38,192 nt of DNA from Candidatus Saccharimonadota bacterium (GTDB lineage Bacteria; Patescibacteriota; Saccharimonadia; Saccharimonadales; UBA4665), in assembly GCA_014377525.1 (NCBI GenBank), contig JACMPL010000030.1, forward strand, positions 1 through 38,192. Reading direction: 5' to 3'. The notes under the pieces are model-generated. The model was given only the letters and a program-made list of their open reading frames with translations, did no database searches and was not told the origin of the DNA. Below, piece by piece: positions 26,996 through 35,096 of this stretch (position 1 is the stretch's first letter; the number at the start of each line of letters is the position of its first letter). Both the position numbers and the translations under genes were made by a program.

Positions 26996-28825
26996 ATGGA
27001 CGCTGTTGAAGAAGTAAAAAACCGGCTGAGCATCGAGGATGTTATTGGCGAGTATGTTCAACTGCGGCGAGCCGGCCGGAACTTCAAGGGGCTGAGCCCA
27101 TTCGCCGACGAACGGACACCAAGTTTTGTCGTTAGTCCCGAAAAACAGATCTGGCATGATTTTAGTTCCGGTAAGGGTGGTAATATTTATAGCTTTATTA
27201 TGGAAGTCGAAGGGCTCGACTTCAAGGGCGCTCTCGAGCTACTGGCCCGCAAGGCTGGTGTCGACCTAGAGCAGTTTCGTGGCAAAAATACGGCGGGAGG
27301 CAACCGCGGTCCGAGTAAGGAACGACTGTATGATCTATTGGAGTTAGCCACCAAGTTTTACCAGGTTCAGTTCAGCCAAAATCAAATCGCTCTCGAATAT
27401 ATTTTTAAAAAGCGACAATTTACCAAAGAAACAGCCTTAGAGTGGCGGCTTGGCTACTCTCCTAACAACGGTGACGCACTAATTATTTTTGCAAAGAGTA
27501 AGGGCTTCTCCGAAGAGGAGATCAAGCAAGCCGGGCTGTCATCACAACGGTACAACGGCGGCATCGGTGATATGTTCCGCGGGCGCTTAATGATTCCACT
27601 GCAAGATCAACAGGGCAGAGTCATCGGTTTTACCGCCCGGCAACTCGACGATAACCCGAACGCACCGAAGTACATCAATACACCGCAAACGGTGCTTTAC
27701 GATAAAAGTCGGCATATCTACGGACTCCATCTTGCCAAAGAAACTATTCGCAAAAGCCAGTTCGTGGTCATTACCGAGGGAAATCTCGACGTCATCATGA
27801 GCCACCAGGCTGGTGTTCGCCAAGTGATTGCAACGGCTGGAACTGCGCTCACCGAGCCGCATCTCAAAGCGCTCAGCCGGTTTACCGGCGATATCAGGCT
27901 TAGTTTCGACGCCGATAAAGCCGGTGTTGCCGCCACCGAGCGGGCGATTCCCATCGCGTCTCGCGTCAAAGTTTCGCTCAGCATGATAACAATACCGAGC
28001 GGTAAGGACCCGGATGAACTTATCAAGCAGGACGCCGATATCTGGCGAGCGGTTATTTCGAAAAACCAGTACGCGCTCGACTGGTTGATTGAGCGCTATC
28101 AAACCTTACTCGATATCACTTCGGCCGAAGGCAAACGAAAATTTAGCGACGAATTGCTGCCGGTTGTTAAAAGCTTGGCCGACGCTGTCGAGCGCGACCA
28201 TTACATGAATACTATTGCCGGCATCATTGGCGTTAGCCGCGATGCCCTTGAGCAAAAAATGGTTACTACGACCGAGCAAACCGGTCCCAAAATTCAGAAA
28301 ACCGTCAAAACGACTACCGTTGTTGACCGTGGATCGGTAGAACTAGAACGGCAGCAAGATACCTTTCTTTGTTTGATGTTAGTCAGGCCGACGCTGCGAG
28401 AATTCCTTACCATAATGGAGCCAGAAATGTTCCACACCGTGCAGGCCAGTGCACTATTCATTTTTCTAAAGGAAAACCCTGATTTCTATGATAAACCCGA
28501 ACAGCTAGCCAAGCTCTGGTCGAAAGAACAGGCGACTGCGACGACCGATGAGGAACGGCAGCTCACCGTGCAAGTCTTGCAAGATTATGTTAAAATACAG
28601 TCATTACTCTATGAGGAACTCTACCAGGGTCTCGAGCTCAACGAACTTCATTACGAAGCCGCTCGATTGCAGGCACGGCTGGTAGAACAATTTGTAAAAA
28701 TTCAGAAACAAGCGCTTGTCAGTAAATTTGATACATCAGACGAGGAAATGACTCGTGCCTTGCTGGGCCAAGTGAAACAGTATGACCAATTATTAAATCA
28801 ATTGAAGGGGAACGCCCGTGGCTAA
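26996..28825 (+). CDS. dnaG: DNA primase DnaG with degenerate zinc-binding domain
   Basis: Primase makes RNA primers at the replication fork. The N-terminal CHC2-type domain is recognisable ([20 protein letters not shown]), but its four zinc ligands are replaced by Ser34, Ala37, Asp55 and Ser58, at exactly the 2-17-2 spacing of the usual Cys/His set. The catalytic TOPRIM domain looks intact, with EGNLDV and SFDADKAG carrying the acidic residues. The C-terminal part (about 430-609) is the helicase-interacting region. At 609 residues it is full length. rpoD overlaps its last 8 bases. Loss of zinc probably changes template recognition but not catalysis. Confidence 0.96.
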
Positions 28826-29957
28826 AGCTAAAGCAACCAAAGCAAATAAAGATCGTAAAGAGATTTTAACGCAAGAACAAAAGAAGCAGCTCATTATCGA
28901 AACTGCTAAAAAGGAAGGGGTGATTGATCAAAAAGCAATCTTTGCACTCATCCCAGAATCGGCCGAAAACGCCGAAGTTCTTGACCTTATTTATACTGAA
29001 TTAGCCGATGCTAGCATCGAAATCACCACGACTGGTCCTAACGTTGATTCATTCACTGATGAGTGGGTCGAAGAGGCCGAAGAGGAAGAAGCTCCGACCA
29101 ACACTGCTGTCTATCTTGACGATGATGTTGCTGACGACTCCGTACGTCTATATCTCCGCGAAATCGGCAAAATTCCGTTGCTATCATCCGAAGAGGAGCT
29201 AGCTCTGGCGCATCGAGTTGTTGCCGGTGAAAAGGACGCTAAAGATAAGATGGCTGAAGCTAACATGCGACTCGTCGTCTCCATAGCGAAACGCTATGTG
29301 GGTCGCGGCCTCGATTTGCTCGATCTGATTCAAGAAGGTAATACTGGGCTGCTACGGGCTGTTGAGAAGTTCGATCCAGACAAGGGCTTTAAATTTAGTA
29401 CCTACGCTACGTGGTGGATTCGACAGGCGATTACTCGAGCGATCGCCGACCAAGCTCGCACTATCCGTATTCCGGTGCACATGGTCGAAACCATCAACAA
29501 GTTACTCCGCACACAGCGTCGCCTAACCCAAGAATTGAACCGCGAACCATCGAACGAAGAAATTGCTAAAGAAATGGAAATTGAAGTCGACAAAGTCGAA
29601 CACATCATGAAAATTAAGCAAGACATTTCCAGTCTTGATGCTAGCATCCGTGACGATGAAGAAGATTCCGTTCTAGCCGACTTCATTGAAGACGAAGATA
29701 CTGTTTCGCCAGAAGAGTCAGCCACCGGTCAACTTCTCAAAGAGCAAGTTAGAGATATGCTGAGCGCCTTAACTGAACGTGAACAAAAAATCTTAAAACT
29801 ACGATTCGGTCTCGAAGACGGCAAAAGCCACACACTCGAAGAAGTCGGCCAAGAATTTAGTGTTACCCGTGAACGTATTCGTCAGGTCGAAGCTAAAGCA
29901 CTCGCTAAGCTTCGCAAGCACAGAGACGCCAAAAAACTGCACGACTACATTAAATAG
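28818..29957 (+). CDS. rpoD: Primary sigma factor RpoD (sigma-70/SigA)
   Basis: This is the housekeeping sigma factor. After a Lys- and Glu-rich N-terminal part (region 1.1-like, about 1-95) it has region 1.2 ([16 protein letters not shown]), a perfect region 2 with [18 protein letters not shown] and the [15 protein letters not shown] -10-recognition helix, region 3, and region 4 with the [15 protein letters not shown] and [14 protein letters not shown] helices. The start codon is GTG at 28818, overlapping dnaG by 8 nt, with GAAGGGGA upstream as ribosome site. The dnaG-rpoD order matches the classical macromolecular synthesis operon. Confidence 0.98.
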
Positions 29958-29994: not shown

Positions 29995-30225
29995 ATGTCT
30001 GACGTAGAACATCCCTACAACCTTAGCCACGTCCAGCAGCATATATTGCCGGATCGCACGAGTGCTGTTTACGGGCATGACGGCCAGCTAGGTAACGGTG
30101 ACGCTGAAATACTTGTTGGAGATAATGTTGCATTAAATATTCTGGGGCGGTATGCCGTCGTAAAAGGCGATGTTGAAGAGCCAGGTCAGCAATCTTGTCT
30201 ACACAAGTACCTGAACACGGCATAA
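29995..30225 (+). CDS. Small protein overlapping the second sigma gene
   Basis: This 76-residue frame is acidic, with no membrane segment. The second half looks folded (DAEILVGDNVALNILGRYAVVKGDVEEP). It overlaps the next gene by 31 nt in another frame. A -10-like box 6 nt before the ATG supports expression, but no homology was recognised. It might be a regulatory or anti-sigma partner of the downstream sigma factor, or merely an uncoding leader frame. Its tight overlap with a non-ATG start favours translational coupling. Confidence 0.45.
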   Translation: MSDVEHPYNLSHVQQHILPDRTSAVYGHDGQLGNGDAEILVGDNVALNILGRYAVVKGDVEEPGQQSCLHKYLNTA

Positions 30226-31355
30226 AATTAGATCGGGAAATGCGACGCTCAGCAGACCAGGAGGCTAACAGCACCGTAAACTTAGTAACAAATAAATGTG
30301 ATCTTACTGCCCCGAAAGAACGGAAAATTGTTGGCGATACCGTCAGTAAAACATATTATGGGAGAGCTCTTTATTTGAAAAAATTGCTTGAATATCCGAT
30401 GTTTGATCCAGAAGATCGCAATCAAAAGATGACTGATCTCAGCGCTGTATTACAAAAAGGGCTAGCTGCTAAACGTTTCCTGCACGAGGATAGCGAGTCG
30501 GGTAGGCAGCTAAATGATACGCGTACTGCTGAGCTATTAGCTGATGCTAAACTAGGTGATCACGCAAAACAAACTATGGTGTTAGCTAATCTAAGATTAG
30601 CCGTATATTACGCTAAACGCTTTAATATCCCATCGAAATCTAGCCTAACATTCGATGATTTAATCCAAGAAATGAATCAGTACTTCATCGAGCGGGCTGA
30701 GAAATGGAACCCAAAGCTAACAACATTTGCTACTTTTGCTGGAACGTATGCTGTTAGACGCTTAGTCCTGGCCAGCGACTATCAAGCTAATATGATAAGA
30801 CTCCCTCATAATATGGCAGCTGAACTTAGAGCTCAGAATAAATACATTGTGCAACGAGAAGCTGAACTTGGTCGAAGTCTTAGTAATCGAGAAAAATTAT
30901 CTATTCAAGAAAAAAGAAGAAAAAAGAGTAAGAAAAAAAGTACTGGCCCTTATTTATTGCAAAGTGCTCGCCGAGCACAAGTTGTAAATGAGTTAGAACT
31001 TAGCAACAATCTGAGCCCAGCTGTCGAGGAGCTAACTGATACCGATAATGATACAGCTAAACGCCGTCCAAAACGTACAGAAATTAGAATTGCTGAAGAC
31101 GCTATCATTGCTTACGGGTCACAGGATCTCGGAGAAATACTAGAGATTGCACTGTTGGCGTTATCCGCGCGTGAAGCCAGTATTTTGCGCCTTCGTTTCG
31201 GCCTTGTTGACGGCAAACCTAAGAATCTTAATGAGATTGGAATAGTTTACGGCTTATCGGGCCAGCGTATTGGTCAAATTCAAGCCAAAGCTCTGTCGAC
31301 GTTACGCCACTCGCAGCGGTTACGGCCATTACGGATGTTCCTTGACTGTATGTAG
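30195..31355 (+). CDS. Divergent second sigma-70-like factor
   Basis: This 386-residue sigma-70-like protein starts at a TTG codon at 30195. ATG at 30240 is an alternative. Region 2 is present (VLANLRLAVYYAKRF, LTFDDLIQEMNQYF), but the helix aligned with rpoD's [12 protein letters not shown] reads TFAGTYAVRRLV, so the two Trp residues and the Gln/Thr -10 contacts are missing. A Lys/Arg-rich insertion (RRKKSKKK) separates it from region 4, which keeps LSAREASILRLRFGL and the GLSGQRIGQIQAKAL helix. Its place right after rpoD suggests a duplicated and diverged alternative sigma factor with different promoter preference. Codon use and AT content are somewhat higher in A/T than in rpoD. Confidence 0.85.
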   Translation: MSTQVPEHGIKLDREMRRSADQEANSTVNLVTNKCDLTAPKERKIVGDTVSKTYYGRALYLKKLLEYPMFDPEDRNQKMTDLSAVLQKGLAAKRFLHEDSESGRQLNDTRTAELLADAKLGDHAKQTMVLANLRLAVYYAKRFNIPSKSSLTFDDLIQEMNQYFIERAEKWNPKLTTFATFAGTYAVRRLVLASDYQANMIRLPHNMAAELRAQNKYIVQREAELGRSLSNREKLSIQEKRRKKSKKKSTGPYLLQSARRAQVVNELELSNNLSPAVEELTDTDNDTAKRRPKRTEIRIAEDAIIAYGSQDLGEILEIALLALSAREASILRLRFGLVDGKPKNLNEIGIVYGLSGQRIGQIQAKALSTLRHSQRLRPLRMFLDCM

Positions 31356-31394: not shown

Positions 31395-31973
31395 ATGGAA
31401 ATCATCGGACTGAGCGGTACAAATGGTTCCGGCAAAGACTTTGTCGGCGAACTGCTAGCCCGTGAGTATAATTTTATGTTCATTTCTGTTACCGACTTGC
31501 TGCGGGCTGAGGCAACACTGAGGCGCGAACCGGTCGAACGGGAAGTGCTGCGCTCTATAAGCGCCGAATGGCGCCGAGAATCCGGCCTTGGAGTGCTAGT
31601 TGAAAAAGCGCATCAAGAGTATCTTAAAGTCGCTGATAAATACGACGGTGTCGTAATTGGAAGCATGCGTAACCCGGGCGAAGCCGACGCTATCCACGAA
31701 CTTGGGGGTGTGATGGTCTGGCTCGACGCCGATGCGCGTATCCGCTACGACCGTATCCAGGTTAATGTGGTAGCTCGCAACCGCGCCGAAGAAGACAATA
31801 AAACTTTCGAACAATTTATAGCCGAAGAAGAGGCCGAAATGCACCTACCTGAGGGCGGTGATATTGCCCAGCTCGACGGCCAAGCTGTTAAGGATCGCTG
31901 TGATGTTTTTATCGTAAACGATGGTAGCGAGGCGGATAGTATACGTGCTGCTATCGCTGAACTTCTTAGCTAA
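31395..31973 (+). CDS. P-loop nucleoside/nucleotide kinase-like protein
   Basis: In this 192-residue protein GTNGSGKD (residues 8-15) is the Walker A loop. A DLLRAEA helix and an ESGLGVLVE segment follow, with an IGSMRNPGEAD motif around residue 95 and a basic lid with RIQVNVVARNR. The pattern resembles adenylate-kinase-like NTPases of the UPF0200/dephospho-CoA kinase group. The substrate is not clear, and Asp replaces the usual Ser/Thr after the Walker lysine. Its 3' end overlaps the earliest possible start of the next small gene. Confidence 0.75.
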   Translation: MEIIGLSGTNGSGKDFVGELLAREYNFMFISVTDLLRAEATLRREPVEREVLRSISAEWRRESGLGVLVEKAHQEYLKVADKYDGVVIGSMRNPGEADAIHELGGVMVWLDADARIRYDRIQVNVVARNRAEEDNKTFEQFIAEEEAEMHLPEGGDIAQLDGQAVKDRCDVFIVNDGSEADSIRAAIAELLS

Positions 31974-34980: not shown

Positions 34981-34988
34981 ACATAAGC

Positions 34989-34994
34989 ATTATA
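34989..34994 (-). promoter_or_regulatory. -10 hexamer of the P-type ATPase gene
   Basis: Minus-strand TATAAT, a perfect -10, ends 8 nt before the ATG at 34980. The leader would be 0-2 nt. Confidence 0.55.
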
Positions 34995-35084
34995 CCTCTT
35001 CGGTGGCATATTGCGGACGACGAGTCGGAATCGTGTGTTTATTAAACTATTGTTAAATCACTGCCTACCGCTACTACTTACCTG

Positions 35085-35090
35085 TATACT
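35085..35090 (+). promoter_or_regulatory. -10 hexamer of polA
   Basis: TATACT ends 6 nt before the ATG at 35097, with a TG just upstream. No ribosome site is present, so a leaderless mRNA is predicted. Confidence 0.6.
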
Positions 35091-35096
35091 TGTTGG

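Follow-up and report, generated by a model that had tools for sequence, protein, structure and literature searches.

The sigma factors closest in sequence and fold to the protein described here are the actinobacterial group-1/2 factors (M. tuberculosis SigA and SigB, Streptomyces HrdB). In sigma-70 the tryptophan dyad acts as a wedge; residues W433, W434, Y425 and Y430 are important in separating the strands (PMC4496690). The melting residues of group-3 sigmas are not conserved, the Trp dyad is missing from most ECF sigmas, which probably open DNA in another way, and both kinds are active without the pair (PMC6411747). Literature searches on sigma factors of Saccharibacteria or Patescibacteria returned nothing specific.

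The window, a stretch of 38,192 nucleotides from a Candidatus Saccharimonadota bacterium (GCA_014377525.1, JACMPL010000030.1), encodes a second sigma factor close to rpoD (Table 1). It shares with the actinobacterial group-1/2 factors a GLxA spacer that separates region 1.2 from region 2.1, as well as the C-terminal end LRH-----LR-fL, but is at most about a third identical to them, has a sigma-3 domain that is hardly recognisable and lacks the Trp pair, Q437, T440, H455, E458, R584, E585 and R588 (residues numbered as in E. coli RpoD, from NC_000913.3). Absence of the Trp dyad is shared with group-3/ECF sigmas such as M. tuberculosis SigH, which nevertheless open promoters (PMC6411747); the second sigma is longer than these, of apparent primary-sigma descent, and not closest to them in sequence. 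Saccharimonad auxiliary sigmas encoded near polA, for which the name sg2 is coined here, have the same neighbourhood and spacer type, but their polA-linked members lie directly before polA.

Table 1. Features of the rpoD-polA neighbourhood and of the second sigma, in window coordinates.
Feature	Position	Strand	Basis
rpoD, primary sigma, Firmicute-like type	28818-29957	+	profile and PDB matches
76-aa ORF between rpoD and the second sigma gene, overlapping the start of the latter	29995-30222		
Second sigma gene, divergent auxiliary sigma-70, 386 aa	30195-31355	+	ORF, Pfam, AF2 model
Predicted helix 48-64, aligns with region 1.2 (YYGRALYLKKLLE)	30336-30386	+	AF2
Spacer between regions 1.2 and 2.1 (KGLAAKRFL...), aligns with the EAGLYA spacer found in actinobacterial SigA and in Saccharimonad auxiliary sigmas; lacking in own rpoD	30408-30587	+	alignment
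Region 2.2 helix, beta' clamp-binding motif DLIQE-N intact (D403, I405, Q406, E407, N409)	30651-30704	+	alignment, AF2
Region 2.3/2.4 helix, Trp pair replaced by Thr-Tyr, plus Q437R, T440V, R441L	30726-30785	+	alignment
Region 3.0 helix, H455N and E458A, R451 retained	30795-30869	+	alignment, AF2
Basic tract RRKKSKKK, sigma-3 domain	30915-30938	+	AF2, sequence
Low-confidence linker at region 3.2 position, no recognisable sigma finger	30942-31067	+	AF2
Region 4, scaffold and flap-facing residues retained, R584/E585/R588 replaced by G/Q/G	31074-31349	+	Pfam, alignment
Nucleotide-kinase-like gene, directly 3′ of rpoD in many relatives, here split off by the second sigma gene	31395-31973	+	
P-type ATPase-polA slot, empty in the window; holds a WW-bearing auxiliary sigma in the same-genus genomes G003, G004 and G005	34981-35096	.	

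Pfam matched the second sigma with Sigma70_r4 (2.9e-11) and Sigma70_r2 (1.2e-6), both above cut-off, and gave no match for regions 1.1, 1.2 and 3, although AF2 predicts helices at the region 1.2 and region 3 positions. Regions 1.1, 1.2, 2, 3 and 4 are all matched in the adjacent rpoD. With regions 2 and 4 in order and a sigma fold, the second sigma belongs to the sigma-70 family, and across the genome (97% complete, 0.89 Mb) the Pfam region 4 model recovered only rpoD and the second sigma. It is not an ECF (group 4) factor, a class with regions 2 and 4 only in about 200 residues, since its 386 residues include a region 1.2-like helix, the spacer and sigma-3 helices. The AF2 model (mean pLDDT 75, pTM 0.49, built from 29 sequences, with domain placement uncertain) matched solved SigA structures in the PDB, the best 18 all being mycobacterial (E 6e-15 to 2e-13). 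The start codon is TTG, with no clear Shine-Dalgarno sequence before it; the first in-frame ATG is at 30240, and the exact start is unsure because residues 1-47 are disordered in the model. Near the gene, seven weak promoter-like sites were found, little more than the 3.7 expected from shuffles.

At this composition a run of 386 open codons would arise by chance with a probability of about 1e-11, and this figure, together with the predicted fold like that of sigma structures, led to the rejection of a chance ORF. An old pseudogene was rejected on the same open-frame arithmetic and on a drift simulation, in which almost every run of neutral change had lost the open 386-codon frame once 0.1-0.2 substitutions per site were reached. 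Extending the N-terminus through the 76-residue frame was also discarded, that frame having no homolog in the fetched loci and no Pfam match. TATAGT and TATACT lie directly 5′ of its ATG, so a leaderless transcript of this frame is possible.

The best PDB sequence match of the second sigma was M. tuberculosis SigA (105 bits, the alignment starting at residue 60, at the end of region 1.2), followed by HrdB and Thermus SigA (about 90), Bacillus (80) and E. coli (76); its own rpoD scored 67.5 bits. Group profiles ranked actinobacteria first (123.9 bits), then auxiliary sigmas (112.0), Firmicutes (86.8) and Saccharimonad rpoD (76.9), and the ranking held for either half as well as for the full-length protein. 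The neighbouring rpoD gave 372-381 bits to its three best SigA chains and 298 to M. tuberculosis SigA, with PRK09210 as its best NCBIfam match. The spacer of the second sigma has 76 residues, compared with 65-69 in actinobacterial sigmas and 38 in its own type of rpoD, and is of the actinobacterial GLxA kind missing from the rpoD of these genomes; spacers of similar length occur in other phyla too, so spacer length alone is no proof. A 49-row tree with many long branches could not place the second sigma (branch length 6.9, or about 7 changes per site) and did not reject its grouping with rpoD (p-AU 0.33), whereas a 30-row tree reduced by the other long branches separated it, together with the auxiliary and actinobacterial sigmas, from the remaining rows by a branch with support 100/99 and rejected its grouping with rpoD (p-AU 0.024, to which the spacer columns may contribute). 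The M. tuberculosis SigA row in both trees was taken from a printed alignment. Duplication of the resident rpoD was rejected on the lower profile scores, the lack of the spacer in rpoD and the result of the 30-row tree, with the 49-row value standing beside them. Descent from an actinobacterial-type (SigA/SigB/HrdB) group-2 lineage rather than from the neighbouring rpoD, a point which the earlier note had missed, is thus the best-supported reading of the profile scores, spacer and 30-row tree, with the 49-row tree not resolving the placement.

The gene order found in relatives is dnaG, rpoD, kinase, P-type ATPase (on the opposite strand), auxiliary sigma and polA. The second sigma gene is not upstream of polA, as in sg2, but flanked by rpoD and the kinase gene; in genome G108 the same slot holds another auxiliary sigma, with TNW for TWW. 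In many related genomes an auxiliary sigma gene closely precedes polA, by 13-21 bp in eight loci and by 48-107 bp in four more, a spacing that suggests co-transcription and a probable operon of sigma and DNA polymerase I. Auxiliary sigmas are gained and lost from one genome to the next. In the same genus, those of G005 and G003 are 52-54% identical to that of G004, whereas the rpoDs of the three genomes are 88-89% identical to the one in the window; the auxiliary family therefore evolves fast. GC3 of the second sigma gene is 0.34 against 0.49-0.57 in its neighbours, and auxiliary sigma genes likewise fall below their neighbours in most loci. No ortholog of the second sigma was found in searches of the genus, the family (93 genomes), the order (393 genomes) and the genome contigs. 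The auxiliary sigmas of G048 and G102 (L075:3616-5319 and L068:7475-8584) nest inside actinobacterial SigA/HrdB in the 30-row tree (100/99), a placement in these sequences that suggests gene transfer from Actinobacteria. Actinobacteria are the phylum that hosts the cultured Saccharibacteria. Actinobacterial-type sigmas appear to have been acquired, relocated and lost in the vicinity of rpoD and polA; many members have at least one altered promoter-reading surface, and the family offers a natural series for studying the divergence of sigma specificity.

The second sigma aligns with rpoD without gaps from F427 onward, where it reads FATFAGTYAVRRLVLASDYQANMIRLPHNM (a shorter gap-free stretch facing rpoD from the same residue is FATFAGTYAVRRLVL), and a small gap falls in the loop just before F427. 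Its stretch facing the -10 helix of rpoD reads AGTYAVRRLVL. The earlier note had reported Thr-Tyr at the Trp-Trp of rpoD and Arg/Val at its base-contacting Gln/Thr, and both are seen in this alignment (W433T and W434Y; Q437R and T440V), together with Y430F, T432G, R436V and R441L. The group 1/2 set Y430/W433/W434/Q437/T440 is therefore F/T/Y/R/V in this protein. Both extended -10 readers are changed as well (Table 1), while F427, T429 and R451 persist, as do N383 and L386 of the -7 pocket. In region 4 the statement that this region is better kept holds for the scaffold, in which 18 of 21 near-invariant non-DNA residues are retained (among them R554, E555, R562-L565, L573, E575, G577, R586, I587, I590, L598 and R599), and does not hold for the DNA contacts, of which two of seven remain (Fisher p 0.009). 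The further suggestion that -35 contacts may persist is contradicted, since the group 1/2 reading set is wholly replaced (R584G, E585Q, R588G), with T583S beside it.

Conservation was compared over 103 near-invariant columns from E. coli residue 375 on, defined across 13 group-1 sigmas. The second sigma keeps 5/22 DNA contacts (22.7%) and 42/81 other residues (51.9%; Fisher p 0.017, uncorrected, with a contact list chosen by the author from knowledge of the literature). This is the largest DNA-contact deficit relative to other conserved residues among 44 auxiliary sigmas, that is, the second sigma and 43 others from related genomes. Twenty-five of the 43 keep WW, 18 have lost at least one Trp and nine have lost both; only two of these nine also lack all of R584, E585 and R588, a set kept in 17 of the 43. 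Loss of the Trp pair alone is not unusual and does not imply odd DNA opening, because it is normal in group-3/ECF sigmas and common among auxiliary sigmas in related genomes. At the level of sequence, a loss focused on DNA contacts with the clamp motif kept is a pattern unlike uniform decay.

The basic tract had been described as lying between regions 3 and 4, but its residues, 241-248 of the second sigma, fall inside the predicted sigma-3 helix 231-249, and the disordered low-confidence linker (residues 250-291) comes after it. At the DNA level RRKKSKKK corresponds to three adenine runs at 30910-30939 (A6, A6 and A7). Counted from IRxP to RFGL, the second sigma exceeds rpoD by about 20 residues.

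These observations are probably best explained by a functional alternative sigma of actinobacterial-type group-2 descent with altered promoter specificity, an extreme member of the fast-evolving auxiliary family of the rpoD-kinase-P-ATPase-polA neighbourhood. The kept core-facing residues and the fold predict holoenzyme formation, in which the clamp motif of region 2.2 and the flap-facing scaffold of region 4 would make the contacts with core RNA polymerase. From the changed -10, extended -10 and -35 readers, promoters differing from those of RpoD are predicted; the new residues may send polymerase to a small promoter set unlike that of RpoD, where DNA would probably be opened less efficiently than by RpoD. 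Of the earlier proposal of an alternative sigma with unusual promoter opening, the first part, with changed promoter reading, is best supported, whereas unusual opening does not follow from a Trp loss that also occurs in group-3/ECF sigmas and in 18/43 auxiliary sigmas. The lack of an ortholog, the low GC3, the very long branch, the p-AU of the 49-row tree and the unrecognisable sigma finger count against the alternative-sigma reading.

That unrecognisable finger, together with changes on all three DNA-reading surfaces beside kept core-facing residues in region 2.2 and a kept region 4 scaffold, would also suit a sigma-derived regulator that binds core without opening promoters, competing with RpoD or using a separate DNA-binding partner; the basic tract in sigma-3 could then bind DNA non-specifically. 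Such a regulator is considered unlikely, although it is the strongest competitor: F427, T429, R451, N383 and L386 are retained, a pure competitor kept by a minimal genome would be unusual, and group-3/ECF sigmas work without the Trp pair (PMC6411747). Somewhat less likely still is a protein of actinobacterial-type sigma origin that gave up promoter reading, kept core binding and may act as a regulator on its own polymerase or on that of a partner. Known relatives of this reduced-genome bacterium live on Actinobacteria.

An acquired group-2 sigma under relaxed selection and on its way out would fit the low GC3, the TTG without a clear Shine-Dalgarno sequence, the very long branch, the missing ortholog and the gain and loss of auxiliary sigmas between genomes. 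This outcome is improbable because simulated drift closes the frame in nearly all runs while the 386-codon frame is intact, and the losses are concentrated at DNA contacts rather than uniform. Delivery by a phage or plasmid is very improbable, for although the gene is AT-rich relative to its neighbours and sigma genes are present on phage and viral contigs, the second sigma's own patterns found no close relative in viral contigs (a search on which phage origin was rejected), the phage and plasmid matches were weak (mostly 54-62 bits; the best, a Nonomuraea megareplicon, 121 bits over two pieces) and the flanking genes form a conserved chromosomal run.

Auxiliary sigma genes 13-21 bp 5′ of polA on the same strand are at L032:6542-7693, L033:6309-7328, L034:8776-10488, L035:6744-8807, L045:1425-2552, L047:2755-4011, L067:9456-10940 and L068:7475-8584. 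Very long auxiliary sigma ORFs (765-938 aa) are present in L042, L043, L044, L046 and L049, and that at L042:7001-9298 looks like a helicase fused to sigma region 4. The sigma-like ORF L054:7407-8597 is on a contig labelled Woesearchaeota, possibly by misbinning or transfer. The 347-aa product of L210:1645-2688, 3′ of a topoisomerase-I-like ORF, carries an N-terminal HTH resembling sigma region 4 and a C-terminal portion that may be HARE-HTH-like; it does not amount to a full sigma. Many related genomes likewise have frames of about 350 aa with a short match to region 4.
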